Below the pieces are notes generated by a model that was not told the origin of the DNA, ran no database searches, and saw nothing but the letters and a program-made list of their open reading frames with translations. A stretch of 64,000 nt of DNA from the NCBI GenBank assembly GCA_963575745.1, contig CAUYUJ010015948.1, positions 60,861-124,860 on the forward strand, given 5' to 3'. This document shows positions 4,351 through 55,300 of the stretch, in pieces (the stretch's first letter is position 1; every line of letters begins with the position of its first letter). The DNA comes from Prorocentrum cordatum. Its lineage: Eukaryota; Sar; Dinophyceae; Prorocentrales; Prorocentraceae. Position numbers and translations under genes: made by a program.

Positions 4351-4699
4351 GATGATGATGAGGAAGAGGAGGACCAGCGTAAACCCAAGAGTCATCAACG
4401 ATGTTGGAGTAAACCCTTCCTCCAAGCTCACTCTTCATAGGCCCCTACAGCGGTTCATTTCCATTGATGGAACTGCCTCGTTGGAAGACACCCGTTTGGA
4501 GACCCTGAAGCATGCCAAACCATTGTTCTCGGGATTCCAACGTCACAGATCAAACTGACTGTTGCGTCTTGACGATCCTGAATCATGCCAGAACGCCACT
4601 CCTAGGACGTCAACACAAATAATCAATGTAACTGTTGCACCCGCATAATCCAGAATCCTTCCAAAACACCATTTCTGATACGTTGATGATGGGAGTCCG

Positions 4700-4975
4700 T
4701 GAAACTCTTGAAAATTGTGTGAACGAATGTGCGCGGTTCTACGGCGAGAGCCACATTTTGAAAAAGAACCGCCCTGAATCCGGGAAACTCCTGGAAATTT
4801 TTAAAGCGAATGTGCGCCGCGCTAAGGCGAGAGCCACATTTTGAAAACCACTCGCCCTCAATCTGCGAAGCTCTTGCAAATTTTAAACCAATGTGCGCCG
4901 CGCTAAGGCGAGAACCACATTTTGAAAACCACCCGCCCTCAATCCGTGAAGCTCTTGTGAATTTTCAAAATGCGG
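4700..4975. repeat. About 82-bp tandem repeat, partial copy at 5930-6000
   Basis: GTGCGCCGCGCTAAGGCGAG and the following GCCACATTTTGAAAA recur at 4729, 4812 and 4893, which is 81-83 bp apart. A further partial copy starts at 5943, on the other side of the LINE fragment. The LINE scrap therefore lies inside this repeat family. Each unit continues with CGCCCTCAATC and GAAGCTCTTG. Confidence 0.7.
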
Positions 4976-4979
4976 TACC

Positions 4980-5734
4980 ACCTGTGCCGGCGATCCCTGC
5001 AGCTGCTCCGCTGCCGGTTGCGACGGTAGGGCCAAGATGCCCTCGCCTTCTGGGAGCGTGCTGTCACGAGTGCGCAAACGAAGGGGGCGATCCTTGCTTA
5101 CAGAGCTCACCTGGCTACCATTGGTGCCCAGCAGGACGACAACTGGGAGTGGAGGGGACCTCAGGGAAGCCTCCGGCTCACTGACGGGATGGGCAAGCAA
5201 CTACACGAGCTTCGCCTGATCCTACGATCTACTGAATGGTCCGTGTTACAGAACAGGACTCGTCGGGAGAGCCCTCTGGCGGCGGGCGTTCCTTTCCCGA
5301 CGGCTGTGCTGCGGGCCGCCCAAGAAGCACTGCGTACCATCCCTGACATGGCTTCACACATGACCGCGGTACTGTGTGGGTGCGTTGTGTCAGACGCCCT
5401 CCTGCAATCACACACAGCAGGGGAGGCATCGAATACTTGCGACCACTGCGGCGGGCCACACGTGCCCACGCTCGAGCGCCATTACTGGGAATGTTCTGCC
5501 AATGACGATCTACGCCAAGGCGCCCGCACGCCGACTGTTGGCCTTACACGCCGGCTGGGCTGGCCCACAACAGAAATGACCAGGAAGGCAGCAATCACGA
5601 CTTGGCTACCGATGGTGCACACCATGGCCAGGACACAACAACGGGCATTCCACACTCGTTTTGCCACGACACATGACTGGGGGGGCCGCGCACGAAGGAA
5701 CACGGCCCTACAACCCGGGAGGGAAAAATCATAA
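4980..5734 (+). pseudogene. LINE reverse transcriptase C-terminal fragment
   Basis: A reading frame is open from upstream of 5039 to the stop at 5732-5734, about 230 codons. It contains LAFWERAVTSAQTKG, then LRLTDGMGKQLHELRLILR, and a Cys/His cluster CDHCGGPHVPTLERHYWEC. A cluster of the form CxxCG...H.WxC is what I expect after the reverse transcriptase domain of Jockey/I-like LINE proteins, and dinoflagellate copies often have this form. No RT core is present upstream, so this is a 5'-truncated relic. The identification rests on the Cys/His cluster and general resemblance. It is enclosed by copies of the 82-bp repeat. Confidence 0.45.
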
Positions 5735-13380: not shown

Positions 13381-13556
13381 CGGACAGCAGGAACCCCCTC
13401 TTAATGTAGCACATCCCCTGTTCTACTCCTTGTTGTGGAACTTATACTTGTACTGGTACTCCCTGCGTGCAGGCTTTGCGGATGATTTCTCAAACGGTCG
13501 TTCATAAGTGCAGTATTGCCGACTGCGGGTGAAACGTCACTGATCAAATGCGTTTG

Positions 13557-17305: not shown

Positions 17306-18329
17306 TCTCCTCCTCCTCCTCCGGCCTCTTGTCTCCTGATGGCAATGCAGTCGTACCGACGCTGCCTCACCCACTTGGCTCTTGTTAGACGGGGCGGCGG
17401 GGCGGCGTTCCAGGGCCGCCCGCTGTCCGAGTCGATCGACCTAGCCCGACACGTTCCCCTCTCCTCCTCATCCTCTTCCACATCCTCCCTCTCCCCTGCT
17501 ATGTATCATGCTCCTGTTGTTGCTGCATGTCATCAATATCATCCTTATCCTCGTCCTTGTCCTTATCGTTATTGTCAGCCTTGTCTTCTTTCCCCTTATC
17601 CTGCTCCTGCCCCTCATCCTCCTCCTCCTCCTCCACGTCCGTATGCTTCTCTTCGTGGTCCTTGTTATCGTCCTGATCATTATCCTCCTGAGGTCGGGGT
17701 AGGTGGGAGGAGAAAAAAAGGGCAGGCAGGGGGGGGGAGAAAGATGAGGAAAGGCAAGAGAAGGGTGATGATGAGGAGGAGGAGGAGGAGGAGGAGAAGG
17801 AAAAGGGCGGGGGAGGGAAGGGTGGATGATGAGGGGAGCAGGAGTACAGCGAGGGTAAGGGCAAAGACACTTGCAAATTTTTGGGGGGGGTCGCAGGGCC
17901 AATAAAATTATAAGGAGACGGATGAGGAGGAGGGGCCATGGTTTTCTTTCCAGGGCATTTGAATCGTGTTCCTGGTGTTTTGGTCCTGGACGGGGTGGTG
18001 GAAGGGGGGGGTCTGGCCAGGCGGGTGGTGGGGGGGGGGGGGGCTGGCCTGGCCTGGCCTGGCCGGGCCCGGGCCCGGGCCCGGGCGGGCGGCGGCGCTG
18101 CCCGCGGCGGCGCTGCGGGCGCTGCCCCTGGGGCAAGGCGCGTTAGCGCGGGGGGGGGGGGGGGGGGGGGGGGCTGCTCTTTCACCTTCCTTTCCTTTTC
18201 CTCCTTATTCCTTGTCCTCCCGTTCCTCCTCCTGCTCCACCTACTCCTCCTGCTCGTGCATTCGCATCCTCCTTCTCGTGCCCCTCATTTTCATCCTCGT
18301 CATCCTCTGCCTCTTCATCCTACTCGTTC
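17181..18329. repeat. CCT/GAG tracts and a G-run
   Basis: CCTCCT-type repeats fill about 17220-17330 and 17460-17640. Purine tracts fill 17700-17850. Long G-runs occur at about 18030-18045 and 18150-18172. Frames over this DNA are low-complexity. A 46-bp non-repetitive island at 17387-17432 recurs inverted near 47.96 kb. Confidence 0.7.
17387..17432 (+). repeat. Conserved island, inverted mate at 47.96 kb
   Basis: TTGGCTCTTGTTAGACGGGG and CGTTCCAGGGCCGCC occur here. Their reverse complements lie at about 47960-48009 with almost no mismatch, whereas the surrounding sequence is unrelated. It may be the remnant of a dispersed repeat. Confidence 0.7.
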
Positions 18330-19260
18330 CCTACTTTGGCTCTGCCTAGACGGGTTCTTACCGCATAAGCTCAAGGGGCCGGGCAGTGGACTACGCCGCC
18401 CCAGGGCCGGCCCGGGCGGTTCCGCCGGCATCTGCCCCACAGTTCCCCCAGGATCCCCCGTTTTGCCTAGCCTAGCTTAGTTTAGCTTAGTTTAACTTAG
18501 CTTAGCTATGCTTAGCTTAGCTTAGCTTGGCTTAGCCTAGCTTAGCTTAGCTTGGCTTAGCTTAGCTTAGCATAGCTGACTTTAGCTTAGCTTAGCTTAG
18601 CTTAGCTTAGCGCATCACTAGCACAGCACAGCACGGCATAGCATAGCCAAGCATACCATAGCATGGCATTGCTTCGCATAGCATCGCACATCGCAGTCTA
18701 GCACAACATAGCATAACATAGCATAGCGCATCATAACACAGCACAGCATAGCACAGCGCAGCATAGCATAGCACATCATATCATAGCAGAACGCAGCATA
18801 CCATAGTATCATAGCATCGTATAGCGCAGCATCGCATATCATATCATAGCCTAGCCTAACCTAGCATAGCATAGCGCAGCATATCATAGCATAGCTTGGC
18901 TTACCTTAGCTTAGCACAGCGCAGCATTAGCACAGCATTAGCATAGCATAGCATAGCCAAGCATAGCGTAGCATAGCAAACCATAACATAACAAACCAAA
19001 TCATAGCATGCAAAGCAAAAGCAGCACTGGCGCGAAAATGTCGATGTAGATGTAGATGAGGTGTACATGTGGATGTAAGTGTAGATGTAGATGTAGGTGT
19101 AGATGTAGAGATGTGGATGTAGATGTAGATGTGCGTCTCGCTGTTGATGTTGATGAAAATGTAGATGCCGGTGTAGATGTTAATGTAGCTGTCGGTGTAG
19201 ATGTAGATGTTGCGTTCCTAGATTCTCCAACCCCCAGGTAGGGTCGCGCTGGGATAATTA
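18330..19260 (-). mobile_element. E element 1 (array-filled, reverse orientation)
   Basis: One end is module Q at 18335-18470 (TCTGCCTAGACGGGTTCTTA, CCGGGCAGTGG, GGCGGTTCCGCCGGCATC, CAGTTCCCCC). It is followed by AGCTTA hexamers (18462-18612) and then TAGCA-type arrays (18612-19010). The element ends with GATGTA hexamers (19040-19210) and module P (CCCCCAGGTAGGGTCGC, GGGATAATTA). The same P-array-Q arrangement recurs at about 25.4, 33.4, 39.5 and 44.4 kb. The GATGTA block is peculiar to this copy. No gene is encoded; the 122-codon Thr/Ser frame is repeat-derived. Confidence 0.7.
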
Positions 19261-19358: not shown

Positions 19359-19380
19359 TCCGTAGCCATTTGGGCTGAAG
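19359..19380 (+). other. Fossil dinoflagellate spliced leader
   Basis: These 22 bases read TCCGTAGCCATTTG then GGCTGAAG. The canonical dinoflagellate leader is [T/A/G]CCGTAGCCATTTT then GGCTCAAG, so 20 of 22 positions agree. It lies 37 bases before the methyltransferase ATG. In genomic DNA, a leader joined to a gene marks an mRNA copied back into the genome. Confidence 0.8.
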
Positions 19381-19417
19381 TGATTTAGGCGGCCCCTGCG
19401 CAACCTTCGCGCTACCC

Positions 19418-20423
19418 ATGGGGAAGGCTTGCAAGGCTGCCACGCGCGCTGCGCCCACCACGAAGGCCAAGGCAGCCATCAAGATGGGCAGCGTTTGCAC
19501 GGGCTGGGCGTCGGAGGCGCAGGCGCTCCACTTCTTGGGGGCCCCATGCGCGCACGAGTTTGGGCGCGACGTTGCTGCCGCCAGCCGCGCGCTTTGCACC
19601 GCCAACTTCGATTTCAAGCAATGATACTCCAACGTGTTCGACAACGATTTCAAGGGCGCGAAATCAGTTGACATATTCAGCACTGGATTCCCGTGCCAGC
19701 CGTGCGCCGCCGACGGGGCGCACAAGAGCTGCGACGACGAGAGGTCCCAGGTGATCGACCCCATCCTCCAGTACGTGAGGCGCCAGAGGCCTCGCGCAGT
19801 GATTATCGAGAATGTGCCTGGCTTTTTGTACTCCACCCACCAGGCTGTTCGTGGCGAGATTGAGCGCAGTCTCAGGCGCTCCGGGCACGTTATCCACATG
19901 AGGGTATTGAACAGCATCAACTTGGGCGTTCCCCAGAACCGCTCGCGCGTGTACTACGTGTGCTTGCGTTCTGACATCAAGGGGAGCGACGCGTTTCAGT
20001 GGCCGATGGAGTCCAAGCCGCCTGCTCTTTCGAGGTTCTTGGACAAGGGGGTTTCGTTGCCTACCACCGAGAGCTTGCGGCCCCGCATACTCGCGACCGC
20101 CAAGGCCATCAAGCAGCAGTGTGACATGGAGCCTGGCGACGCCCGCATCATCATTGATGCTGCGAACGGTCGTGGCCCACACTACATGGTTGGCATGTCC
20201 CCCGCGATCACCGGGTCGCGTGGCTGCGACCAAGGCCTACGTGGACACCAAGACGATGAACTTCCTCAGCCTGGACAGCATCATTCGCCTGCAGGGCAGC
20301 GACCCTGCTGAGTTCGACTTCTCGATGCTCACGCGCACTGCGGCCGGCGAGCTCGCCGGCAACGCCATGGCGGTTTCAGTGATGAAGGCGTTGTTGCCCA
20401 ATGTGATCAAGGCCATCCAGTAG
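19418..20423 (+). pseudogene. C5-cytosine DNA methyltransferase, copy 1 (degraded)
   Basis: Dcm/Dnmt-type fold. ATG 19418 gives MGKACKAATRAAP. Motif I-like VCTGWASEAQAL sits at about residue 27. The catalytic loop DIFSTGFPCQPC follows, then VIIENVPGFL (ENV motif), VPQNRSRVYYVCLRSD (QxRxR motif) and near the end ELAGNAMAVSVM (motif X). A TGA at 19622-19624 falls where copy 2 has a Trp codon, so TGG to TGA is likely. A frameshift near 20215 shifts into the frame that ends with IKAIQ at 20423. The family transfers a methyl group from SAM to cytosine C5. The catalytic PCQ is intact but the breaks make the copy probably inactive. It shares an architecture, the 5' peptide MGK and a leader fossil with copy 2. 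Confidence 0.8.
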
Positions 20424-20950: not shown

Positions 20951-21770
20951 TTGACGCTTCGCGTATCCCCACCAGCCCATCCATAATTGATTGCGAGTTT
21001 TTCTCGAGGCATCTTGGAGGTTATCTTGAGCCAGGCTCGGCAAGAGGCTGTCGGAGGTTATCTTGAGCCATGCTCGTCTATGTTGGGCCATCTTGAGGCT
21101 GGCTTGAGGGTCTGTCGGAGGCTATATTGAGCCATGCTTGGCTATCTTAGGCCATTCTGAAATCCATATCTGCGTATATTGGGCTCTCTTGAAGCCATTA
21201 TTGGGCCAAACAGGGCGGGGTGGAGGGTCTTTGGGGAGAGGCTGGGAGGCCTCTTGGGGTCATCTTGGGCCACGTGGCTCAAAAGGAGGAGGTCCCCCAA
21301 TTAGCATCGCCCCCTCGGATGTTCTCAAACGGCATGTTGGGGCCCTCTTGGAGCGATCATGGTGGCCTCTTGGGCGATCTTGGGGCCGCATTCTGCATTT
21401 GTGGGCCCTTCTAGGGCATATGTTGGGTCAGCGTGGGGCCATGTTGAGGCTTCCAGAGCCTATCGGAAACGAAAAGGCGATAATACCAAAAACATGGATT
21501 CCCCCTCGGCTCTCAAATGGTTTTGCCATTTTGGAGGGCACCGTGGAGGGCTCAGAGGGCACTTGGATCCGTCTTGGGGCTGTCTTGGGGCTTCTTTGGG
21601 GGCATGTCCGGGTGCTACGTTGACCCATCTTGAAGTATCACGGGTCATCTTGGAGGCCATCTTGCGACTTTGAATGCCTCTTGGAGCCTGCCTGGGCCAT
21701 CTCGGACGCTGGGGGGGAGGGTAAGGGGTGGGGTAGAGAGAAGAAACACAACGTGTTACACCACCTAAGC
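20951..21770 (+). repeat. R repeat, copy 1
   Basis: The copy starts TTGACGCTTCGCGTATCCCC and then drifts through degenerate GCCATCTTGG and GGGGC words at roughly 12-30 bp spacing. It shares long stretches with 40468-41340, including CAAACAGGGC, GTGGAGGGTCTTTGG and the segment around GCATCGCCCCCTCGGA. The ORFs across it are repeat by-products. The downstream DNA to 22070 holds degraded TAGCA words and no gene. Confidence 0.7.
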
Positions 21771-23486: not shown

Positions 23487-24378
23487 CTTTCCCGGAAAGG
23501 GCGCCGGCCCAGGGTTCTCTTTTAGTAGGTAAACCTGTCCCCGGTGCCTCAACTGAGGCGGGATGGCGGATTACTTCCCTGATAAATGTCGAGATCGGGG
23601 GGGCCAGCGGATTAATATTTGAGGATATCTCAGGCGAACAGCTCGTGTTTGAAATCCCGTTCGATAATAAATCACAGGGCGCAGGCCACTCTTTCGCGTA
23701 TTGAGGATGTCTCGAGCGCAACGATTGCTCCGCATAGTTGCCGAGGATGTCGCGAGCGAATCGCTTGTTTTGTAAAAAAAAACTTGAGGGATCTGGGCGC
23801 CCCAGATATATGCCTTCTCCAGGTGCACCCCGGCACGACCGCACCCCAGAACGAGCGACCGCGCCCCGGCACGACCCCGCCCCAGCACGACCCCACCCCA
23901 GCACGACCAAACCCCAGCACGACCACATCCCAGCACGACCCCACCCCATCAAGACCATCACCCCACACCCCGGCACGACCTCACCCCAGCACGACCACAC
24001 TCCAGCACGACCGCGCCCCAACACGACCACGCCCCAGCACGACCACGCCCCATCACGACCACCCCCCAGCACGATTACCCCCCCCAGCACCACCACCCCC
24101 CAGCACGACCACCCCCTAACACGACCACACCCCAACATGGCTCTTCCCCAGCACGACCACACTGCCTTGGTTGAGTGTCGTGGGGTGTCTCGTGGACTGG
24201 TGCGGGGTGCCTCGTGGAATGTTTCCAGGAATACGTCGAAAACGGTCGCTGGTGTCTCGTGAATGTTTCGCGGGGTGTCTCCTCGAAGTGCCCGTCGCCC
24301 AATGCGGTGTCGCGAACATATTTCCATGCATGTGGTTGTATATCACATTCCAGGTTCGTGGGTCTATCATGTTGATCC
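23487..24378 (+). repeat. S-T composite repeat, copy 1 (uninterrupted)
   Basis: S (23487-23586) contains GGGCGCCGGCCCAGGG and CTTCCCTGATAAA. T follows without a break: TGTCGAGATCG, GGATTAATATTTGAGG, repeated GAGGATGTCTCGAGCGAA words, a 15-bp minisatellite (about 23826-24170), then GTGTCTCGTGGA words and GGTTCGTGGGTCTATCATGTT. The same order occurs at 33274-35092, where an E element splits S from T. The GAGGATGTC words are the reverse complement of the 64-bp array near 3 kb. Confidence 0.8.
23826..24170 (+). repeat. 15-bp minisatellite
   Basis: Variants of CCCCAGCACGACCAC repeat with a 15-bp period, giving Thr/Pro/Ser/Arg frames on plus and Gly/Val/Trp frames on minus. A homologous array is at 34499-34872. 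Confidence 0.85.
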
Positions 24379-24844: not shown

Positions 24845-25445
24845 GCGTCAGCTATGATATGCTGTGCTGCGCTATGATAGGTTGCGCTATGCTATGGTAT
24901 GCTGTGCTATGCTATGCCAAAGCCCAGCGAAACTAAAATGACGGTAAGCTAAGCGAAGATAAACCTGAGCTAAGATGAAGCTACGATAAGCTAAGATGAA
25001 ATAAGCTAAAGGGGCCGGACAGTGGAAATCGCCCTGGGCAGTTCCCCCGGCATCCGCTCAGCGGTTCCCCCAGTTACGTTCTTAGCTTAGCGATGATTAT
25101 CTCACCTTAGCTAACATTATTTCATCTTAGCTTAGCCTAGCTTCATATTAGCTTAGGTTTATATTATCTTAGCGCACCTTCATCTTAGCTTCGCTGAGCT
25201 TTTGCATGGCAGAGCACAGCGTAGCATAGCATAGCGCAGCGCTGCATAGCGCAGCACAGCATATCATAGCATAGCCCAGCATCGCATAGCACAGCGCAGC
25301 AAAGCATAGCATAGCATATCATAGCACAGCGCAGCACAGCACAGCGCAGCAAAGCATAGCACAGCATATCATAGCAGCAAAGCAAAGCAAAGGCAAAACA
25401 ACAGCAGCGGCAGCAAAGCACAAGCAACGCAAAGCAAAACAAAGC
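24845..25445 (-). mobile_element. E element 2a, partial (Q module plus arrays)
   Basis: TGCTATGC words precede module Q at about 25005-25080 (AAGGGGCCGGACAGTGG, GCAGTTCCCCCGGCATCCG, GTTCCCCCAGTTAC). AGCTTAG words and TAGCA arrays (25200-25380) follow. It runs straight into E2b with a shared P module, so the two look like head-to-head copies. Confidence 0.5.
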
Positions 25446-25951
25446 ATTATCACAGTGCGACCCTACCTCGGAGTTGGAGCCCCTAGGAAAGCAGCATTAG
25501 CAGCCACAGTGAAGCTAAGCTAAAGTTGAGCTAAAGCTAAGCTAGAGCTCAGCTGAAGCTAAGCTAAACTGAAGCTAAGCTAAAGCTAAGCTAAAGCTAA
25601 GGTAAGCTAAGCTAGCGCTAAGCGAACGCTAAGTTAACGCTACGCTAAAGCTAAGCTAACGCTAAGTTAACGCTAAGCTAAATTTAAGTTAAAACTAAGC
25701 TAAAGCTACGGTAAAGCTAAGGTAAAGCTAAGCTAAAGCTAAGCTAAAGCTACGCTAAAGCTAAGCTAACGCTGAGCGACGCTAAAGTTAAGCTAAAGCT
25801 AAGCTAAAGCTAAGCTAAAGCTAAGCTAACGCTAAGCTAACGCTAAAGCTAAAGCTAAAGCTCCCAGGGGACTGGGGGGGCCGCTCCCAAGGGATGCTGC
25901 CCGGTCCTTTAAGCGCACAGGGTAAGAACCCCTCGGCAGAATTTAGGTCGG
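25446..25951 (+). mobile_element. E element 2b
   Basis: Module P (ATTATCACAGTGCGACCCTA, then GGAGTTGGAGCC, CTAGGAAAGCAGCATTAG) is followed by GCTAAGCTAAA arrays (25510-25860). Module Q (GGGGACTGGGGGG, GATGCTGCCCGGTCC, GGGTAAGAACCCC) closes it. At 505 bp it is the shortest complete-looking copy. Confidence 0.6.
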
Positions 25952-25985
25952 GAGAAAAAAAAACAAAGCAAATACAAAGCAAGGG

Positions 25986-26355
25986 GCAATGCCTAGAGGG
26001 CTAGCTTAGCTTAGCTTAGCATAGCGCAGCGCTGCCTTAGCAAATCATAATATAGCATAGCCTAGCCAAGTATATCATATCATAACACAGCATTGCGCAG
26101 CATAACATAGCACATCATACCATATCATATCATAGCGCAGCTTAGCATAGCATATCATATCATCGCGCAGTATGGCACAGCGCAGCACGACATAGCATAG
26201 CTCAGCATAGCATCGCATATCATAGCGCGACATAGCATAGCAGATCATAACATATCATAGCGCAGCATAGCATGGTATAGCAAAGCAAAGCATAGCAACT
26301 AATGCTGCTTTCTTAGGGGCTCCAACTTCTAGGTCGGGTCGCATTTGGGTAATTG
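25986..26355 (-). mobile_element. E element 2c, partial
   Basis: GCAATGCCTAGAGGGCTAGC leads into TAGCA and CATAT arrays and ends in module P (CTAATGCTGCTTTC, GGGGCTCCAAC, GGTCGGGTCGC). It lacks module Q. The stretch 26356-26640 after it holds no recognised feature apart from a short duplication of GCCTGGGCTTCATCT. Confidence 0.5.
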
Positions 26356-33273: not shown

Positions 33274-33367
33274 TTTCCCGAGAGGGGCGCCGGCCCAGGG
33301 ATCGCTTTTAGTTGGTGAACCAATTCCCAGTGCCCGAGGTGGGCCGGCGGATTCCTTCCCTGATAAA

Positions 33368-34258
33368 CTACCCTAGTGCGACCATGCCTAGAAATTGGGC
33401 CCCCCAGGAAAGCAGCATTAGTTGCTATGCTATGCCATGCCATGCCATGATATGCTGCGCTAAGCTATGCTGTGATATGCTATGCTGCGCTATGTTATGC
33501 TATGCAAAGCTATGCTATGTCATACTGTGCTGTGCGATGCTGCGCTATGCTATGCTACGCTGCGCTATGCAATGCTATGATATGTTATGATATGATCTGG
33601 TATGTTGCGTTATGCTATGCCATGCGATGCTATAGTTGGCAACATATTTTATGCTAGGTTATGCTAATACAGCGCTGCGCTATGCTAAGCTAAACTAAGT
33701 TAAGCTAAACTAAGCTAGCCTTCTAGGCATTGCTCCGTGCTTTGCCTTTCCCTTGCGTTGCAGTTGCTTGTGTATTGCTTTGCGTTGCGTTGCTTGTGCT
33801 TTGACTTGCTGTCGCTGATGTGGTTCTGCCTTCGCGTTGCTGCTATGCTGTGCTATGCAATGCTATGCTGTGCTGTGCTATGCTGTGATGTACTGTGCTA
33901 TGCTATGCTATGCTATGCTGCGCTATGCTATGCGATGCCGGGCAATGCTATGATATGATGTACTGCGCTATGCTAAGCTACGCTATGCTACGCTACGCTG
34001 TGCTCTGCTATGCTAAAGCTCAGCGAAGCTACGATGACGGTACGCAAATCTAAGATAAACCTGAGCTAAGATGAAACTAAGCTAAACTAGTATGAAAAAT
34101 GATAAGCTAAGACGAGATAGGCAACGCTAAGCTAAGGGGGGGTAACTGGGGGACCCATGGTGCGGATGCTGGGGGAACCGCCCGGGGCGATTTCCACTGC
34201 CCAGCCCCTTTAAGCAACAAGTATAACAATAACCCTTCTAGGCAGAGCCTAGGTATGG
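33368..34258 (+). mobile_element. E element 3, insertion with defined ends
   Basis: Comparison with the uninterrupted S-T copy places the ends at CTACCCTAGTGCGACC (left) and GCAGAGCCTAGGTATGG (right), 891 bp. AAA on both sides may be a 3-bp target duplication. The ends are weakly inverted (CTACCCTAG against CCATACCTAGG). Inside are module P, ATGCT arrays (33420-34020), CTAAG words and module Q (GTAACTGGGGGACCC, GGGGGAACCGCCC, CAGCCCCTTTAAGC). No protein is encoded, so it would need an enzyme from elsewhere. Confidence 0.75.
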
Positions 34259-34498
34259 AAATATCGAGGTCGATCGAAGTGGGCCGCCGGATTAATATTT
34301 GAGGGTGTCTCAGGCAAACCGCTTGTTGTTTTTGAAGTCCCGATCGATAAAGCACATGGCGTGGGCCACTCTTTCGCGTGTTGAGGATGTCTCAAGCGAA
34401 ACGCTTGCTCCGCGGAGTTACCGAGGATGTCTCGAGCGAATCGCTTGTTTTGTAGAACATGAGGGATCTGCACACCCCTGAGATTTGCTTTCTCCAGG

Positions 34499-34872
34499 TG
34501 CACCCTAACACGACCACACCCCAGCACGACCACACCCCAGCACGACAATGCCCCAGCACGACCCCACCCCAGTACGACCCCACCCTAGCACGACCAACCC
34601 CCAACACGACCACGCCCCAGCATCATCCCACCCCAGCACGACCACCCTCCAGCACGACCACCCCCCAGCACGACCATCCCCAAACACGACCACACCCCAG
34701 CGCGACCACACCCCAGCACGACCACGCCCCAGCACGACCACGCCCCAGCATGACCACGCCCCGGCACGACCAACCCCCAGCACGACTACCCCCCAGCACA
34801 ACCACCCCCCATCGCGACCACGCCCCAGCACGACCACACCCCAGCACGACCTTTCCCCAGCACGACCACACC
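34499..34872 (+). repeat. 15-bp minisatellite, second array
   Basis: CCCCAGCACGACCAC variants, homologous in position to the array at 23826-24170. Confidence 0.85.
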
Positions 34873-36244
34873 ACCTTGGTTGAGTGGTTGCCTGTTGTCG
34901 TGGAATGTTTCGCGGGGTCTCTCGTGGACTGTTCTCGTGGAGTGTTTCCATGAAAACATTGAGAACGGTCGCCCGTGTCTCGTGGAATGTTTCGCGGGGT
35001 GTCTCGTGGAAGTGCCAGTTGCCCAATGCGGTGTCGTGAAAACTATGCATGAGGTTCTATATCCCTTTCCGGGTTCGTGGGTCCATCATGTTGGAACGAT
35101 GCCCCCTTGGAGCCCTTTCTTGGAACCATCCTGGCGCCCCCCTTCACCCTGCCCTGGGAACGCATTGTTGCCATCGCATTGCAGTTGCCCAGCCCGAGCG
35201 GTTCAGCTCGCCCCGACCAACTTCAGAATTCCGGGCGCCCTCGGCCTACCTACATCCGCCCAGGGATGGCCAAGCGTAGCGCGCCCAAGCCTGCTGCTGG
35301 CAAGGCCAAGGCCGCGCCCGAGCATGTCTCTGGCGGTGCTGCTCAGGCTCCAGAACATCGCGTCGCGCCGGCAAGCGGCGGGGCCCAGGGCAGCCAGAAC
35401 GCCAAGCTCCTCGCTGATGTGATGGAGGCGTTCCATTATCTCAATGGGCTCCCAGCTTCCAATGGAATGGTCAACGCTGCTCCACTTGGTCTTGGTGACG
35501 GGGGCCAAGCATCCCCATTCGGTGATGATGTTGCCATTGGCGCGTTGAAGGGATCTGACACTTACATATGCGGTGGTAACTTGTGGTGGGTTGATTTCGC
35601 GTGCAATGTGCAACCAGGTGCGCCAATCAGCCACAATTCCATTGAACTCATCAAGAACGACATGTTCGGCGGCGGTCCACCTCAGGTCTTCCCGCAGACT
35701 ATCGCTGTTGCCATCATGAGTAAGGCCGACCAGCTGTCGTCCGAATTTGGGCGCTTGGTCAGGGTCAGTCCCGAGGATCCATGGCGTGCAAACTTGAGCC
35801 CCCCTCCTCAACCTCCCCATCATTTTCTTCTTCGCCCCTCCTCCTCCTCACGTCGCCCCCCCCCCCTCCGCGCCCGCCCCATCCCCCTACAGAGGGGCGG
35901 GGGCGGGCGAGAGTTCATGGGGGGGGATTGGGACGACGAGCATGAGAAGGAGGGGGGCGAGGACGAGGATGATGTTGAGGAGGATGATCAGGAGGAGGGA
36001 GAAGATAATGGTGACATGTTTGTTCTGACAACGCCAGGAGCTGATCTATGGATTCTACGTGGCTGCAGCGACAGACATCAAGAACTTCGATGGCGATTCC
36101 GATCGTGCAGAGGCGTGGCGCCGGTGCGCGCTGACAGTTCCAATTGAGTTCGTCTACCTTGAAAATGCTGACTTGCGCTACTGGAAAGCTGTGAACCTCA
36201 GGGAACGGCTGGGCGCGACCTACGCGTCCATGTACCGCTCGGCA

Positions 36245-39453: not shown

Positions 39454-40464
39454 CCCTACCTAGGATATGTCTAGAAGGGTTCTTACTTTATGCTTTTAAA
39501 GGGGTCGGGCAGTGGGGCTCGCCCTGGGCGGTTCCCCCGGCATCCGCCCCGTGGTTCCCCCAGTTACGTCCCCCTAGCTTAGCGTTGCTTATCTCATAAT
39601 AGCTAAAGCCTAGTTAGACTTCGCTTAGCTTAGCTTAGCTTAGCCTAGCTTAGCTTAGCTTAGCTTAGCTTACCCTAACCTAGCTTCGCTTAACTTAGCT
39701 TAGCTCAGCTTAGCTTAGCACAGCATTCGCATAGCATAACATAGCATAGCATAGCGTAGCATAGCGCAGTATAGCATAGCGCCGCATATCATAGCGCAAC
39801 ATAGCATAGCATAATATAGCATATCATAGCGTAGCATACGCAGCATAGCATATCATAGCATGGCTGAGCGCAGCGCAGCACAGCCTAACCTATCATAGCA
39901 TAATATCGCATATCATATCATAGCATAGCATAGCACAGCATATCATAACATATCATATCATAGATCAGCATATCATCGCATAGTGTAGCATATCGCATCA
40001 TATCATAACATAGCATGTCATACCATATCATAGTGCATCATAACATCTCATAGCATACCTAGCATATCATAGCATAGCGCAGCGTAGCATATCATACATA
40101 TCATAGCGCATCATATCATAGCATATCATAGCATGGTATAGCGCAACATCGCATAGCATAGCATAGCCTGGTATAACATAGCGCAGCCTGGCATACCCTC
40201 GCATATCATCGCATAGCGCAGCACAGCGCAGCATAGCGCAGCATACCATATCATAGCATATAGCATAGCGCAGCATATCATAGCATATCATAGCATCAAT
40301 ACAAAGGCAAACCAACAGCAGCAGCAACGCAAAACACAACAAACGCAACTTGAAGCACCGCAAACGCAAAAGCAAAGCAAAGGAAATGCACAGCAAACGC
40401 AATGTGCGACAGGTGCTGAGCTATATGCTCCAACTCCTAGGTAGGGTCGCACTGTGATAATTAA
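39454..40464 (-). mobile_element. E element 4, inside the last intron
   Basis: Starts CCCTACCTAGGATATG, CTAGAAGGGTTCTTAC, GGTCGGGCAGTGG and GGCGGTTCCCCCGGCATC (module Q). AGCTTAG hexamers (about 39610-39715) and TAGCA arrays (to about 40300) follow, then AAAGCAAA words. It ends GGTAGGGTCGCACTGTGATAA (module P). R copy 2 follows almost immediately, at 40468. Confidence 0.7.
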
Positions 40465-40467
40465 TGG

Positions 40468-41340
40468 TTGACGCTTCGCGTATCCCCAACAGCCCATCAA
40501 GAATGTGTTGCCAGTTTTCTTGAGGCCTCTTTGGGGGCTATATTGAGCCATGTTCGGCTATTGGCTGAGGCTATCTTGAGCCATGCTCGGCCATCTGGGG
40601 CAATTTTGATGCTGCCTTGAGGCATTTGGGAGGTCTGTTGGAGAATATATTGAGCCATGCTTGGCTATCTTAAGGCAATTTTGAAAAACTATATTTTCAT
40701 ATCTAGGGCCACCTTGGCGCCATATTGGGACAAACAGGGCAGGGTGGATGGTCTTTGGAGAGAGAATGGGAGGCCTGTTGGGGTCATCGTGGGCCCCATA
40801 GCTCAAAAAGAGGGGAGCCCTCAATAGCATCGCCCCCTCGGAGGCTCTCAAATGGCATCGTGGGGCCCTCTTGGAGCGCTCTAGGGCGCCTTGGGCGATC
40901 TTGGGGCCGTCTTCGGCTTTCTTAGGGGCCCTCTTGGGCATCTTTTGGGCCATCTTGGGGCCGTCTTGATGCGTCCAAAGCCCATCGTACGCGAATATGC
41001 GATATCATTGATTTTCTGTAAGCTTTTGAAGGGTTTGGGCATCTTGGAGGGCGCTGTGGAGGACTCCTAGGGCACTTGGGTCGTCTTGGGGCTGTCTTGG
41101 GGCCTCTTGGGGGTATGTCAGAGGCTATCTTGACGCATCTTGAAGTAGCATGGGCCATCTTGGAGGCCATCTTGCGACTTTGAAGCCCTCTTTGAGCCTT
41201 CCTGGGCCATCTTGGACGCTGCGGCACTTCCGCCCCCCCCCCAAGACCGGGGGGGGAGGTGGGGCCCCGGGGGGAGGGGTAGAGAGAAGAAAGAAACGCG
41301 CCATCCCACCTAAGCCCGGAGGGCTGGTGGGATTGCGCCC
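40468..41340 (+). repeat. R repeat, copy 2
   Basis: Starts TTGACGCTTCGCGTATCCCC and matches 20951-21770 in order, including CAAACAGGGCAGGGTGGA, GCATCGCCCCCTCGGA and the closing CCACCTAAGCCC. Here it lies between E element 4 and the last exon of the orphan gene. Confidence 0.7.
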
Positions 41341-42957: not shown

Positions 42958-44061
42958 ATGGGGAAATGTCGCAAGTCAGAGCAGGAGCGGTTGCGCAACC
43001 TCAGCATCTCAGAACTGCAAGCAATGGTGAGGCGTCGCGAGGACAGGCTTCGACAACAGAGAGCGTCGTCTTCTACTCCGGGTGCCCAACCTGCGTCCAG
43101 CAGGGATCTCACCATAGGCAGTGCGTTTACTGGATGGGCGGCTGAAGCGCAGGCGCTCAAACAGCTTCAGGCCCCTTGCGCGCATGAGTTTGGATGCGAC
43201 AAATTGACAGCCAGCCACAGGTTTTGCACCGCCAACTTCCATTGCAAGAAGTGGTTCTCGAATGTGTTCGAAGATTTCAAGGGCGCAGTATCAGTGGACA
43301 TCTTCTGCGCTGGATTCCCTTGCCAGCCGCGCTCGCAAGATGGGCGGCGCGAGGGGGGCATGAGAGCAGATCCGACGTGTTGATCCCAGTTCTCGAGTAC
43401 ATCCGGACACGTCGTCCTCGTACTTGCGTCCTGGAAAACGTCAGGGGGTTGATGACAGATACCTTCCAGGACATCAGCCAAGCCATGGTGGTAACCATCG
43501 AGAAGGCTGAGTATCGCGTTCACATGAAGGTCTTGGACAGCCTCAACTACGGCGTACCCCAACATCGCGAACGTGTGTACATCGTGTGCTTGCGTTCTGA
43601 CCTCCCTAGGTGCGACGCGTTCGAGTGGCCAGAGGAGCTCCGGGCGCCACCTCTGCGATCGTTCTTAGAGAAGGGGGGTGCGAGTGCGCATCGCGAAGCC
43701 CGCCCAGGAGCGCATCGAGCGTGCCGTCGAGAAGCTCGTCACAGACCAGCCGAATGTGAACGCGCGTGCTACTGGCGTCATTGTGGATGCGCAGAATGGC
43801 CGCACGAAGCCGGTGTACATGGTCGGGGCTTGCCCGACGATAACGAGAAGTAGGGGCGGGTGCGTCAGGGGCTGCATGAACGTGCGGACCATGACGTTCC
43901 TCCGCATCAGGAGCATCGTTCGCCTGCAGGGCAGCAACATGAGTGAATTCGACTTCAGTGGCCTCTCGCGTGCGCAGATTGGCCACTTGGCAGGCAACGC
44001 CATGACGGTGTCAGTGATGAGGGCCCTTTTGCCCAGGATGATTCAGGCGCAGGCTCACTAG
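42958..44061 (+). pseudogene. C5-cytosine DNA methyltransferase, copy 2 (degraded)
   Basis: ATG 42958 (MGKCRKSEQERLRNLS) is followed by a short helical stretch and motif I-like GSAFTGWAAEAQALK. Then come DIFCAGFPCQPRSQDG (catalytic PCQ), CVLENVRGLM (ENV), VPQHRERVYIVCLRSD (QxRxR), and GHLAGNAMTVSVM close to the stop at 44061. Two frameshifts fall exactly in runs of six G, at 43353-43358 and 43673-43678. Everything else is open, about 365 codons. The target-recognition stretch between QxRxR and motif X is short, as in copy 1. I expect CG- or non-CG-specific cytosine methylation from the family but cannot tell which. Because both shifts are in homopolymers, read errors are a real alternative to decay. 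Confidence 0.8.
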
Positions 44062-44385
44062 AGAGACGTGCGCTGCATGTGGCAGAAAAAAGTGCCCTCC
44101 ACATTTCCTCCACCCATGGTCTTCTTCCTCCTCCTCCCCCTGTTCTTCCTTTCTCATTTTACTCCTCCTTGTCCTCGTCCTTCTCCTCGTCCTTGCCCTT
44201 GTCTCTGCGTTTCCCCTTCTCCCCCCCCCCTCTCGCCCTGTCCTTTCCTACTTCGCGCCCCTCCGCCTCAGATCCCCCCCCCCTCGACCCCCTGCCCGGA
44301 GCCTGCGGGGCGCTGGCGCCGGGCCGCCGGGCAGAGGCCTGCCGGCGGGCCGGGGGGGGGGCCAGCGTCGGCCGACTGGCCCCGC
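44062..44385. other. Pyrimidine-rich spacer
   Basis: CTCCTCC and CCCCCC tracts pass into GC-rich DNA. The Ser/Pro frames are simple-sequence products. Confidence 0.6.
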
Positions 44386-45090
44386 CCCAGTGCGACCCTA
44401 CCTGGGAGTTGGATCCCCGAGGAAAGCAGCATTAGTAGTAACAGTAAAGCTTAGCTAAAGCTAAGCTAAAGCTAAACTAAAGCTAAGCTAAAGCTACGCT
44501 AAAGCTACGCTAACGCTAAGCTAAAACTAAAGCTAAAGCTAAGTTTAAGCTAAAGCTAAAGCTAATCTAAATAAATCTAAGCTACAACTAAACTAAATCT
44601 AAGCTAAAGCTAAGCTACAGCTAGCGCTAAGCTAACGCTAAACTAACGCTAAGCTAATGCCAAGCTAGCGCCAAGATAACGCTAAGCTAAGGCTAAGCTC
44701 AAGCTAAGCTAAAGCTAAGCTAAAGCTAAGCTAAAGGTAAGCTAAATATAATGTACATCTGAATTAAAGCTAAGCTAAAGCTAAGGTAAAGCAAAGCTAA
44801 CGCTAAGCTAACGCTAAGCTAAAGCTAAGCTAACGTTAGTCTAAAGCTAAGCTACAGCTAAGCTAAAGCTAAGCTAAAACTAAGCTAAAGCTAAGCTAAA
44901 GCTAAGCTAGAAACTAAGCTAAAGCTAAGCTAAAACGAAGCTAACGCTAAAGCTAAGGCTAGCTGAAGCTCCCAGGGGACTGGGGGAATCGCTCCCAGGT
45001 GATGTTGGGGGAACCGCCCAAGGCGGGGTCCACTGCCCGGCCCTTCAAGCATTCAGGGTAAGAACCCTTCTAGGCAAAGCCTAGGTATGG
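44386..45090 (+). mobile_element. E element 5
   Basis: CCAGTGCGACCCTACC, GGAGTTGG and GAGGAAAGCAGCATTAG (module P) are followed by GCTAAGCTAAA arrays (44440-44960). Module Q (GGGACTGGGGGAATCGC, GGGGGAACCGCC, GGGTAAGAACCC) ends GCAAAGCCTAGGTATGG. The right end is nearly identical to that of E element 3, which supports that boundary. Confidence 0.7.
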
Positions 45091-49673: not shown

Positions 49674-52600
49674 GGAGTCAGCGGTGCTGGAGTCGGCGGT
49701 GCTGCTCGGGTCAGGGACGCTGCTGGAGTCGGTGGTGCTGCTGGAGTGGAGTCCGCTGTGCTGCTGCCAGAGTCGGTGGTGCAGCTGGAGTCAGAGGTGT
49801 TGCTGGGGTCGGCGGCGCCGCCGTAGTCGGTGGCACCAGAGTCGGCAGCGCTACTACCCGAAGTCAGTGGTGCTGCTGGAGTCGGTGGTTCTGATGAGCT
49901 CCGTGGTGCTACTGGAGTCAGTGGTGTTGCTGGAGACAACGGCGCTGATGCCAGAGCCGGCGGTCCTGCTGGGGTAGGTGGCGCCGCTTGGGTCGGTGGT
50001 GCTGCTAGAGGCGGTAATGCTGGAGTTGGTAGCGCTGATGCCGGAGTCTTTGGTATTAGTTTCAATGGTGCTGATGACGTCAGTGGTACTGCTGGAGTCG
50101 GTGGCGTTGCTGCTGTTGGGATCGGCAACACTTCTGCTGGAGTCGGTGGTGCTGCTTGAGTCTGTGGTGCGGCTGGGCTCAATGGTGTTGCTGAAATTGG
50201 TGGTACTGCAGGAATCGGCGTCGCTGATGGCGGAATCGGTGGTCCTGCTGGAATCGGTGCTGCTGCTGGAGTCGGCGGTGCTGCTGGAGTCAATGGCGCT
50301 CTGTCGGAGTCCGTGGTGCTGCCGGGGTCAGTTGTGCTGGGGTCGGCTGCGCCGCTGGAGTTGGTGGCGCTGGACTCGGCGGCGCTGCTGCTGCTGGGTT
50401 CGGTGGTGCTGCTGGATTCGTCAGTGGTGAAGTCGGCGGTGCTTCTGCTGGAGTCGGCGGTGCTGGAGTCAGCGGTGCTGCTGCGATCAACGAGGCTGCT
50501 GGAATCGATGGCTTTGCTGGAGTCGGCTGCGCAGCTGCCGGAATCGGTGGTGCTGCTGGAGTCGGTGGTGCTGGAGGGGTCGGCGGCGCCGCTGGAGTCG
50601 GCGGCGCTGCTGCCAAAGACAGTGGTGCTGCTGGAGTCGGTGGTTCTAATGAGCTCCCTGCTGTTGCTGGAGTGAGTGGCGCTATTGGAGTCGGCGCCGC
50701 TGATGCCAGAGTCGACGGTGCTGCTGGAGTCGGTGCTGGGGTCGGTGTTGGGGCTGGAGTCAATGTCGCTTCTGTCGGAGTAGGTGGTGCTGCTGGAGTG
50801 GGTGGTGCTGCTGGGGTCGGCAGCGCCGCTGGAGTCGGTGGCGCTGGAGTCGGCGGCGCTGCTGCCGGAATCGGCGGTGCTGCTGGAGTTGGTAGTGCTG
50901 AAGGCGGCGGCACTGCTGCCGGAGTCGGCGGTGCTGGAGTCGGCGGCTCTGCTGGGGTCGGCGCGGCTGCTGGAGTCAGCGGTGCTGCTGGAGTCGGCTG
51001 GCCTACTGCCAGAGTCGGTGGTGCTGCTGGAATCGGTGTCGCTGCTGGTGTCGGGGGTGCCGCTGGAGTCGGCGGCGCTACTGCCTGAGACAGTGGTGCT
51101 GCCAGGGTCGGTGGTTCTGATGAGATCCGCGGTGTAGCTGGAGTCGGTGGCGTTGCTGGAGTCGGCGGCGTTGATGTTGGAATCGGCGGCGTTGCAAGGG
51201 TCCGTGGTGCTACTGGAGGCGGTAGTGCTGGATTCGGTCGCGTTGATGCCAGTCTTTGGTGCTGGTTTCGGTGGTGCTGCTGTGGGCGGTGGTGCTGCTG
51301 CTGGAATCGGTGGCGCTGCTGCTGGAATCGGCGTCGCTGCTGCTGTTGGGGTCGGCAGCGATTCCACCGGATCCAGTGGTGCTGCTTTAGTCTGTGGTGC
51401 TGCTGGGGTCGGTGGTGTGCTGCTGGTCGGCGTCGGTGTCGGTGATGAACTGCGTGCGACTTGGGATGCTGGAGTCGGTGGTCTCCTTGGTGCGTTCGTC
51501 GTTGTTGGCATCGATGTGTGCGTCGGTGCTGGCGTCGATGGTGGGGTCGATGCCTGGGGCGATGATGTTGATGCTGCCGTCGATTCTGGCGTCGCGGCTG
51601 GCGTCGGTGCTGGCCTCGATGCTGGGGTGGTTGGTGGTCCGTCGTCTTGGTCGCGATGGTGATGTTGGCTGTCCGTGCACTGGTCATGGTGGCGGTGCTG
51701 GCTGCTTTCATGCTGGTAAGGATGGTACCTCTGGTTTCCGGTCGCTGATTTCCGTCATGCTCGTCATTATGGCGTTGCTGGTCGCAGTCGTGCTCGTCAT
51801 TGTAGTGTTGCTGGTCGTGAGCGTTGTGGTGCTGGTCACAGTCGTGTTTGTTGTGGTGGGGGCGGTGGTGCTGCTGCTGGTCCTGTGGCTGCAGGTCTTT
51901 GCTAGTCGTGCTGGTTGGCTGTTGTTATCGTGGTGGGTCTGCTGGTCGTGCTCGCATTGCTGGTGCTGGTGCTGGGTCAGCTGGTTGCGGCATTGGTCGT
52001 GGGAAGCAGTGGCCCTGGCCCAGGCTTTGCCCATGGTTATGCCGAGAGTGCGGGAGTAATCGCAGGCCCTGCTGGCGACCTCCTCTGTGGCGTAGTATAC
52101 GAAGCCGTAGTCGACGAAGCACTCTGACGGTCCTAGGGCGACGTAAGAGGCCTTTTAGAGCCAAAGTAGGCTGAAGGTCGGGCGCAGGCCGCGGCTGTCG
52201 AAGTGGATCCCCGGTTTGCACACTCGGATGATGCGCCTTGGAGCGTCAGGATGGGCTCCGAGGCCAGACCGACCAGCGCTGGTCGGGAAGGTTCTTGGCG
52301 GCTGTGTCGATGCTGCGGTGCATGCTGCCACCGGTGCTGAAGACGATGCAGAGTTCGGCGCTGAAAACGATGCAGATGTCGGTGCTGGCGGCTGGGCTGG
52401 TGTGGTTACTTCTATCGGCGATGCTGGCGTCGTTGCAGTCGGCGCGGTTGGCGTCGGCGCTGGTGTCGATGACGGCCCCGATGACGGCGTCGACGTGGCA
52501 CGTCGGTCCAGCGTGGTGGCCAGACTCAGGAGCCGCGGTCGGAGAACCGTTGCTGCTTCCGTCGATGCTGGCGTCAGTGCTGTCGTTGATGCAGGCGTCG

Positions 52601-55300
52601 ATGCTGGCGCCGCTGGGGGCGTTGCTGCGGGGAACGACGCTGGTTGTTGTGCTAGTGGCTGCGCTGACAGTGCTGGCGTCGCTGCGGGCGTGGGCGTTAC
52701 GTCGATGCTGGAGGCCGTGCCTGCGCTTGTGCTGACGTCGAGGGTGGCGTCGCTGTGAGCGACGATGCCACGGGCGTCGGTGCCGTCGGTGACGACTTCG
52801 ATGCAAACGTGGATGCTGGCGTCCCCGGTGGCGTCGCTATTGGCGTTGGTGCTTGATGTCCTGCTGGGGTCGGCGCTGACTTCGACGTAGGCGACCGTGC
52901 TGGCGGCGCCGCGGGCGTCGGTGCTGTTGGTCGCACGGGTAATGGTGCTAACCTCGATGCTGGCCTCGCTGTAGGCGTCTTTGCTTGGGTCGATGCTGGA
53001 GGCTGAGCTGAGGCGAGTGCTGGCGTCGATGCGGGAGTCGATGCTGGCGTCGCTGCGGACTCATATGTTAGCATCGCTGCTGACGAGGATGCTGGTGTCG
53101 GTTCTAGTGTCGCTGAAGATGCTGGCGTTGCAATATTCGTCGCGGTTGGCGTCGATGCCTGGAGTTGTCCTGGCGTCGGTGCTCCCACCGGCGTTGGGCT
53201 CAGTGCTGGAAGCTGTGCCCGTGTCGGTGCTGACGTCGATGCATGCGCCGCTGGTGGTGCCGTCGCAATTGTCGTATCTGGCGTAGGTGATGCATGCGAT
53301 GGTCGTGCCGATGACGACGTAGTCGCAGATGTCGGCGTGGGGCGAGCATGAAGAAGCGCGGCCATACTCGGGAACCACAGTCGGGGGACCGTGGGTGGTG
53401 GCGTCGATGCTGGCGCTTGTGCTGACGTCGATGCGGGTGTCGACACTGGCGTGGCTGAAGGCGTAGCTGCTGCCGTTGGCGCAGGGGTCGCCGCTGGCGT
53501 CGCTGCCGGCGTTAGTGGCGAGGTAGGGACTGGTGCCGTCGCCGCGGGCGTCAGTGCTAGCATCGATGGTGGGGGCTGTGGTGCCGTCGGTGGCGACTTC
53601 GATGCAGGCGTGGTTGCTGACGTCCCCGCAGGCGTCGTTGTTGGCGCGGGTTGTTGATGTCCTGCTGGAGTCGGTGGCGCTGCTGCTGGAGTCGGTGGCG
53701 TTGCTGTTGTTGGGTCTGCAGCGCTTTTGCCAGAATCAGTGGTGCTGCTAGAGTCTGTGGTGCTGCTGGGCTTGGTGGCGTTGCTGAAATTGGTGGTGCG
53801 GCTGAAATCGGCGTCGCTGATGCCGGGTGGTGCTGCTGGAGTCGGTGGTGCTGCTGGGGTCGGTGGTGCAGCTGGAGTCGGTGGCGCTTCTGTCGGAGTC
53901 CGTAATGCTGATGGAATGGGTGGTGCTGCTGGGGTCGGCGGCGCCGCTGGAGCCGGTGGCGCTGGAGTCGGCGGTGCTGCTGCCGGAGTCGGTGGTGCTG
54001 CTGACAGAGTCGTTGGTGCTGCTGAGGTTGGTAGTGCTGAAGGCGGCGGCGCTGCTTCCGGAGTCGGCGGTGCTTGAGTTGGCGGCTCTGCTGGTGTCGG
54101 CGATGCTGCTGGAGTCGGTGCTGCTGCTGGACTTGCTGGTGCTGCTGGAATCGGCGGTGCTGCTGGAGTCGGTGGCGATGCCGGGGTCGGTGGGGCCGCT
54201 GGAGTCGGTGGCGCTGAAGTCAGCGGCGCTGCTGCCGAAGACAGTAATGCTGCCGAAATCGGTGGTTCTGATGAGCTCTGTGGCGGGCATTGCTGGAGTC
54301 GGTAGTGCTGCCGGCGCTAACGTCGATGTCGGCGGTTGCTGGAGTCGGTGGCGCTGCTAGTGTCGGTGGTGCTGCTGGAGGCGGTAGTGCTGGAGTCGGT
54401 GGCGTTGATGTCAAAGTCATTGGAGTTGGTCTCGGTGGTGCTGCTGAGGACAGTGCTTCTGGTGGAGACAGTCTTGCTGCTGGAGTCGGTTGCGCTGCTG
54501 CTCGAGTCGGTGGCGCTGCTACTGTTGGGGACGGCAGCGCTTCTGCTGGAGCCAACGGTGCTGCTGTATTATGTGGTGCTGGTGGGCTCGGTGGTGTTGC
54601 TGCGGGTGTTGCTGCTGGAGTCGGCGTCGCTGCTGGGGTCGGTCGGTGATGGAGCTGGGGTCGGTGGCGCTTCTGTTGGAGTCTGTGGTGCTGCTCGAGT
54701 CTGTGGCGCTGCCGGAGTCGGTTGTGTTGCTGCAGTCGGTGGTGCTACTGGAATCATCGGCGGTGCTAGCTCGTACAAGTCGCTTTTGTGGCTGTTGCAT
54801 TTGCCGTGGTAGCCGCCGTGGAGCCCTTCCTTGTGCAAGTCGCTGTCGTGGCCGTCGTGGGTGTCGTGGTAGCCGCCGTGACGTGCGTACTCGAAGAAAT
54901 CGCTGTTGCGGTTGTCATGGTTTCCGTGGTGGCCACCGTGGTGCTTGTAAGAGTCGCTGCTGGCCGTGGTCGTTGTGGCTGTCGTGGTGTCCGCCGTGGT
55001 GTGCTTGCACGTGGGAGGCGCTGTCGTAGCTGTCCTGGTGGCAGCCGTGGTGTGCTTGAACGTGGGGGGTGCTGTGGTGGCTGTCGTGTTGGTCGCCGTA
55101 TTTTGTGTCTGTAGTAGCTGTCGTGGTGGTTGGTGGTTGTCGTGAAGGCTGTCGTGGCGATCGGTGGTTGCCGTAGTGGCTCTCGTGGTGCTTGGTGGCC
55201 AGTCGTGGTGGCCGTCCTTGTGTCTGTCGTCATGACTGTCGTGGTGGCAATCGTAGTGGCTGTCGTGTTGCTTGCGCTTGTCGGTCGTGAGAGGCAATTT
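49674..55300. repeat. 5.6-kb block of short GC-rich repeats
   Basis: Four zones. 49674-51470 and 53660-54770 have an 18-bp period, GTGCTGCTGGAGTCGGTG, with many point variants. 51470-53660 is mostly a 12-bp period, GTCGATGCTGGC, with GTCGTGGT words at 51660-51990. 54770-55300 is GTCGTGGTGGCC-like. Stops are rare in several frames. The minus strand carries Pro/Thr/Ala/Ser frames of 615 codons (49664-51511), 473 codons (50290-51711) and 288 codons (52697-53563). No non-repetitive domain is attached, so I call it a repeat and not a gene. Confidence 0.8.

Follow-up and report, generated by a model that had tools for sequence, protein, structure and literature searches.

Array-filled elements of Prorocentrum cordatum are probably non-autonomous rolling-circle transposons of the Helentron/Helitron2 type

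A family of short array-bodied elements, here called E, is dispersed through the genome of the dinoflagellate Prorocentrum cordatum and is probably (about 0.8 by our estimate) a HINE-like, non-autonomous rolling-circle transposon of the Helentron/Helitron2 type. It was studied from a stretch of 64,000 nucleotides (the window) and from related loci in the same genome. One copy is present as an insertion whose empty counterpart lies in the same window; the copies have common ends with an asymmetric inverted repeat, follow a TT target without duplicating it, enclose a body of short arrays and in some cases contain head-to-tail junctions, and the genome holds Helitron domains. Since the ends, the TT target, the lack of duplication and the array body fit the descriptions of Helitron2, Helentron and HINE elements, we consider that E works like a HINE and is a candidate member of Helitron2/Helentron. 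The 3' hairpin was not found, nor was an autonomous relative with the same ends in the surroundings (up to 1.5 kb) of the 20 Helitron domains searched.

The insertion E3 interrupts the second of two copies of the S-T repeat (coordinates of all features are collected in Table 1). The earlier note had described S-T copy 1 as continuous at 23581-23593, and GATAAATGTCGAG is indeed read there unbroken. In S-T copy 2, GATAAA ends at 33367 and AAATATCGAG starts at 34259, which leaves an insert of 891 bp (33368-34258); the 891 bp given in that note is correct when measured up to AAATATCGAG, while measuring up to TATCGAG, as it was worded, gives 894 bp. When joined, the flanks of E3 align with the empty S-T copy over 339 columns with 83.3% identity. 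The homology score is 115 to the left of the junction, against a maximum of 32 for 949 random window segments, and 143 to the right, against a maximum of 33 for 935 segments, so the proposed insertion with an empty site in the window stands, and chance homology of the S-T copies at the junction, which the note had raised against itself, finds no support in these scores. E3 is found with the same flanks at 5 other loci in the genome (94-96% identity for the 5' flank and 88-91% for the 3' flank), which indicates that the insertion is old and was duplicated together with the S-T repeat. TTT is present on both sides of E3 and a single TTT in the empty site; such a TT or TTT common to both edges is indistinguishable from Ts belonging to the element, and is an exception to the statement that no target is duplicated. 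The S-T repeat itself (approximately 23488-24374 and 33274-35093) is a 16-bp CACCCCAGCACGACCA array flanked by conserved sequence, also occurs elsewhere in the genome, and is possibly another array-bearing family.

Table 1 Coordinates of E copies, their parts and empty sites within the window
Feature	Position	Strand	Basis
E3, complete copy, 891 bp, Q to P, inside S-T copy 2	33368..34258	-	flank homology, ends, 5 further genome loci
Paralogous empty site for E3, GATAAATGTCGAG, S-T copy 1	23581..23593	+	
E3 Q (5') terminus: inverted repeat CCATACCTAGG and hairpin CTAGGC-TCT-GCCTAG	34227..34258	-	
E3 P (3') terminus: subterminal inverted repeat copy, then TCGCACTAGGGTAG	33368..33422	-	
E3 TGCTA array	33423..33633	.	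TRF
E3 TGCTA array, second	33841..34015	.	TRF
E3 internal TGCCTAGAAGG, matching Q hairpin arm	33719..33729	-	
E1, complete, 929 bp; TAGCT, TAGCA and ATGTAG arrays	18329..19257	+	
E2, complete, 507 bp; 11-bp AAGCTAAGCTA array; nested in E6	25446..25952	-	
E4, complete, 1008 bp; perfect 12-bp asymmetric inverted repeat	39454..40461	+	
E5, complete, 708 bp; 11-bp TAAAGCTAAGC array; P end without AATT terminus	44383..45090	-	
E6 first half, Q side, truncated, broken by E2	25007..25445	+	match to E3 34212-33775
E6 second half, reaching P end	25953..26353	+	P profile E 5.5e-18; 25964-26354 matches 33755-33366
E7, inverted fragment fused in a fold-back to the truncated Q side of E6	24851..25009	-	
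Uninterrupted counterpart of the L017 insertion site (tandem repeat)	4680..4980	+	gap-free alignment

With profiles of the two end modules, built from the same window copies that they then find, both ends were recovered in five copies, and one more P end, the sixth, at 26354-26299 (E <= 1.7e-12); the next matches were the truncated Q module of E6 (E 0.043) and then only matches with E >= 0.88. The five, which measure 507-1008 bp when read from Q to P, are the ones that had been listed as complete-looking at 18.3, 25.4, 33.4, 39.5 and 44.4 kb. The partial copies listed at 24.8 and 26.0 kb, on the other hand, are not independent and correspond to E6 split by E2, together with a fold-back fragment: segments 25007-25442 and 25964-26354 are the two halves of E6, separated by the complete E2. 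The interior of E3 is an uninterrupted relative of the E2 site, and the join, which lies in low-complexity sequence, aligns without removing any duplication. We also considered, and rejected, GCTTTGTTTT as a longer duplication at E2: its 5' copy does not abut E2, and the E3 interior aligns without removing GCTTTGTTTT. Fragment E7 is 86.9% identical to E6 and 84.3% to E3. The fold-back at 24851-25270, in which this inverted partial copy is fused to the truncated Q side of E6, is either a template switch or an assembly chimaera. Repeat U (20951-21714 and 40468-41224, 78.7% identical, with degenerate GGGCCATCTTG units) begins around 5 bp past the P end of E4; E4 beside repeat U was discarded as a filled/empty pair, the homology being on one side only.

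The assembly holding the window comprises 4.13 Gb in 21,875 contigs, and the GC content is 59.0%, the published values for P. cordatum being 59.7% GC and 4.15 Gb (PMC10666404). With E3 as the query, the family proved widespread in the host genome, with at least 70 matches when 40 of 8807 first-look candidates were scored. The 38 loci taken, which cover most of the matches listed, were thus chosen by their likeness to E3, and 37 of them have both ends. Leaving out L040 (no end pair), L004-L008 (the E3 site) and L014, L027 and L038 (the site of L013) gives 29 independent genome sites besides that of E3, with elements of 487 to 1430 bp; a first set of 14 sites, used for folding, T content and the search for an empty site, is a subset of these. 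The combination of consistent termini and an array body that the earlier note had read from the window is found again at the 29 sites.

Read from Q to P, the sequence has TT, after which the element runs from CCCTACCTAGG to CCTAGGTAGGGTCGCACTGGGGTAATT. The alignment of ends across the genome, which had been proposed as a check, yields a common terminal consensus: the 5' edge is TT at 27 of the 29 sites (TG and TC at one each), followed by CCCTACCTAGGCTCTGCCTAGAAGGG in most, and the 3' end is TAATT in 17, TAATG in 3, CAATT in 2 and a single variant in each of the rest. Compared with the inverted copy near the other end, the first ten bases agree at all ten positions in 16 copies, at nine in 7 and at five to eight in 6, so that the 10-base asymmetric inverted repeat matches at 9-10 positions in 23/29 genome copies. 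The 3' inverted copy stops 16 bases before the 3' end, and these sixteen bases outside the P-side repeat are conserved. This is the arrangement of Helitron2/Helentron ends, with the 5' copy 0-2 bp from the end and the 3' copy subterminal. In the window the same register matches at 45/55 positions over five copies (25 for the next register and 31 for the direct control), and the window end consensuses have 11 bp in common, which was equalled in 2/20000 shuffles. Taken singly, only E4 (1/1000) and E3 (20/1000, in another register) have a significant inverted repeat, and in E2 the direct-orientation control outscores it. The elements also have palindromic CCTAGG boxes.

The family targets T runs without duplicating them. 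Over the ten bases that precede the element the T content is 0.60, compared with 0.25 further out, and over the ten that follow it 0.41, compared with 0.27 (14 sites), a T-rich or TT target without duplication being what is described for Helitron2/Helentron. Abutting direct repeats, with up to four bases of slack, have a mean length of 2.52 at the 29 sites, compared with 2.58 in 812 cross-site pairs, and exact edge repeats of 2 bases are present at 9 of the 29 sites, of 3 bases at 3, of 4 bases at 1, of 5 bases at 1 and of 6 bases at none. The target duplication length that was to be derived is thereby answered: there is no constant duplication. TT stands on both sides of E1. The search for further empty sites, which had also been suggested, led to E2 in E6 (against E3, as described above) and to L017, which sits in an 83-bp tandem repeat and whose joined flanks align gap-free with window positions 4680-4980 over 163 columns with 80.4% identity. 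No effect of palindromic context was seen, with 4/14 insertion sites and 4/28 control windows reaching <= 4/100 shuffles.

The hairpins differ between the two ends. The 5' hairpin overlaps the inverted repeat, as in Helitron2/Helentron, in 14/14 genome copies examined, with 0-11/200 shuffles folding as well (RNA parameters); these copies are nearly identical in the hairpin, so the 14 do not constitute 14 independent tests. It is present in 4/5 window copies (14-25/200 shuffles as good, DNA parameters), E2 being the one without it. No covariation accompanies it, 0/10 pairs being altered on both sides. The other hairpin of Helitron2/Helentron elements, which lies beyond the 3' inverted repeat and before the terminus, was not found. 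Among the window copies, 0/6 beat their shuffles at the 3' end (four unfolded and two weakly folded), and for the 14 genome copies 8-94/200 shuffles were as good over the last 45 bases and 66-181/200 over the last 29. A strong 3' fold of the window consensus (2/500 shuffles) was dropped because it is absent from all 6 window copies. A five-pair 3' stem, CCCAG/CTGGG, overlaps the inverted repeat, is paired in 26/30 cells and has one both-sided change; it was rejected as not above the shuffle control (352/500), and two others of the 1078 five-pair helices tried equal or beat it.

Between the two conserved ends lie five-, six- and eleven-base arrays which vary from copy to copy. In E4 the order is Q, a TAGCTT-type array, a TAGCA-type array, a GCAAA-rich segment and P; a second array pair is present in E3 and E6, E1 has an ATGTAG array, and E2 and E5 have an 11-bp array with a period-11 match of 0.79 and 0.72, respectively. 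Eight 9/10-mers from the arrays occur 186 times inside the family, which makes up 7.9% of the window, and 3 times outside it. Copies L030 and L037 lie within host simple repeats (ATGATG and GTTGTTG), so arrays and elements may also meet via target choice. In 7/29 genome copies the body contains a head-to-tail junction, TAATT/CCCTACC: the array leads into CATGGGTGTAATT/CCCTACCTAGGCTCTGCC, i.e. the last bases of the 3' end fused to the 5' end. A stub, CATGGGTG, is common to all seven junctions, and they may descend from a single event. TGCCTAGAAGG of E3, in the same position, looks by its sequence like a decayed junction of this kind. The junctions are most simply accounted for by a circle or a tandem product, and may alternatively have arisen by end-to-end insertion followed by deletion.

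A source of Rep/helicase, as in the Helitron2/Helentron group, exists in the same genome. With 150 of 1615 candidates scored, the Helitron_like_N domain (PF14214) has at least 151 matches in the host genome; 14 control genomes gave none. All the matches listed are above the cut-off, and many lie in long open frames. At loci L042-L061, Helitron replication domains in company with long open frames are numerous, and autonomous Helitrons are apparently plentiful in the host and perhaps were active recently. Around 20 Helitron domains no E ends were found at distances of up to 1.5 kb, and the autonomous relative with the same ends that the earlier note had hoped for did not appear there. Within the window, no Helitron domain was found among the 20 of 44 long ORFs scanned with Pfam. 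Exact end patterns gave 0 matches in public viral contigs (four patterns) and 0 in prokaryote genome contigs (two patterns); three viral-contig matches to a 17-mer were discarded, as the similarity does not extend past the pattern. Rfam gave 0 families at gathering score, and 0 tRNAs were found. Helitrons are mentioned for Symbiodinium (PMC9087856), the main text of a review of dinoflagellate genomes does not contain the word Helitron (PMC11453091), and the dinoflagellate transposon literature consulted yielded no account of such a family, which is a weak negative.

Several other features were seen in the window. The remains of an L1-like LINE at 10984-13400 (-) contain an endonuclease/exonuclease/phosphatase domain (E 7.7e-7) and a reverse transcriptase (PF00078, E 2e-29), which has a named relative in Symbiodinium (48%). 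At 49685-54752 there are long arrays of the 18-bp unit TGCTGGAGTCGGTGGTGC, strongly skewed in G and T, with long open frames on the minus strand, and direct repeats with 64-bp units are found at 3020-4020, with ~72% identical copies ~360 and 650 bp apart. Within 19360-20200 (+), which starts around 100 bp past the P end of E1, a stretch with 2 mismatches to the spliced-leader motif precedes a frame that resembles a cytosine-5 methyltransferase and has one in-frame stop; a similar stretch at 43123-43332 is 77% identical to 19491-19705, and 19360-20200 has the look of a retroposed gene. The spliced-leader-like stretch, the L1-like reverse transcriptase, the GC content and the genome size suit a dinoflagellate host; against this, the frame resembling a methyltransferase is also matched, at 91% over 30% of its length, by a transcript labelled as Pyramimonas, a green alga.

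From the ends and the target we infer how such an element would move. A Rep/helicase supplied by an autonomous relative would nick between TT and CCCTACC, Q being the 5' end; one strand would be peeled off up to a stop at the 3' end just past the subterminal inverted copy (the P end, ...TAATT), and this strand, or its circle, would be inserted after a T run without duplicating the target. Only the end modules would be required, the slot between them holding short arrays, which could expand, shrink or be exchanged via slippage or template switching.

Other kinds of element were weighed against this reading. A canonical Helitron1 (5'-TC...CTRR-3', inserted between A and T) was rejected, as the 3' end is TAATT at 17/29 sites and an A precedes TC in 1/5 window copies. 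Some other class of asymmetric mobile element, known or undescribed (moved, for instance, by another Rep or by a tyrosine recombinase, with binding at the CCTAGG boxes), would fit the absence of a Helitron2-type 3' hairpin, the position of the 3' inverted repeat at ~16 nt from the end, nearer than the published 20-30 (PMC3627910), and the failure to find an element combining E ends with a Rep within 1.5 kb of the 20 domains; it is nonetheless unlikely, the remaining terminal features and the target fitting the described group, whose replication domain is abundant in this genome. The TTT flanking E3 against the one TTT of its empty site, the TT flanking E1 and the identical dinucleotides at the exact edges of 9/29 sites could point to a MITE-like element, moved in cut-and-paste fashion by a DDE transposase, that has short inverted repeats and a 2-3 bp TT/TTT duplication. 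We regard this as quite improbable and rejected the TIR/MITE class, considering that sixteen conserved bases lie beyond the P-side inverted repeat, that exact 3-base edge repeats occur at only 3/29 sites, with none at all at the L017 site, and that there is no constant duplication.

The presence of an L1-like LINE in the window, the edge TT, which reads AA on the P to Q strand, and the nine A after the Q end of E2 speak for a SINE-like retroposon read from P to Q, with an A-tail and copied by LINE machinery. This class was rejected and is very improbable: no B box was found on either strand in 5/5 window copies, A8/T8 near the ends occurs in 1/5, no target is duplicated, and both ends are present at 37/38 loci (picked by similarity to E3). 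That the sequences are not mobile at all, but result from the growth of microsatellites within an old segmental repeat or from an artefact of assembly, is scarcely tenable; arrays are unstable, and the E3 insertion itself occurs at six loci with common flanks, but there are 29 further independent sites with unrelated flanks, in addition to the empty sites.

If E is a HINE-like rolling-circle family, as we favour, it is tentatively suggested to be a dinoflagellate one with particular traits: a cargo of nearly pure arrays (TAGCTT, TAGCA, GCAAA, ATGTAG and the 11-mer) which is swapped or re-expanded between copies, its own circle or tandem junctions retained in inserted copies, a role as a vehicle for satellite dispersal, and no 3' hairpin of the type of its kin. 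Repeats whose origin is unclear abound in the very large genomes of dinoflagellates, and exact ends and targets make countable the share of short-array DNA which was seeded by one kind of transposon. With E, the array-bearing Helentron pattern of flies, mites and oysters (PMC4067079, PMC7492417) would reach a distant lineage. The internal end-to-end junctions offer a direct sequence test for rolling-circle products, and the missing 3' hairpin raises the question of what else marks the end of replication.

As for known systems, the introners of dinoflagellates (PMC11453091) are, like E, short, non-autonomous and spreading; they generate spliced introns, and the likeness is one of description. 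Helitron2 is described (PMC3627910) as having a hairpin on the 5' side, where an asymmetric terminal inverted repeat (ATIR) lies 0-2 bp from the T end, and an ATIR in subterminal position on the 3' side, 20-30 from the end. E resembles it in the ATIR 0-2 bp from the 5' T, the overlapping 5' hairpin and the subterminal 3' ATIR, whereas the hairpin after the 3' ATIR and an own RepHel were not found in E. Helitron-1N1 of Chlamydomonas, in the same account (PMC3627910), inserts after TTTT without duplication, as E does. The HINE/DINE-1 elements, which are non-autonomous Helentrons (PMC4067079), are like E in having two end modules, inverted repeats that lie near the end on the 5' side and in subterminal position on the 3' side, microsatellites or tandem repeats in some copies and an unmodified TT target, again a likeness by description; they differ in a 3' palindrome, which was not found in E, and in host lineage, and in mite HINEs the 3' inverted repeat lies 38-60 from the end, compared with ~16 nt in E. 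The earlier note's remark that mobile DNA with an array for a body is unusual needs amending in view of these elements and of Cg_HINE from the oyster Crassostrea gigas (PMC7492417). In the latter, as in E, left and right modules surround a tandem array in fixed order, and the target is oligo-T without duplication; the array of Cg_HINE consists of satellite-like monomers and a 3-8 nt microsatellite, while E mostly has arrays with units of 5, 6 or 11 bp, which are not the same from copy to copy.
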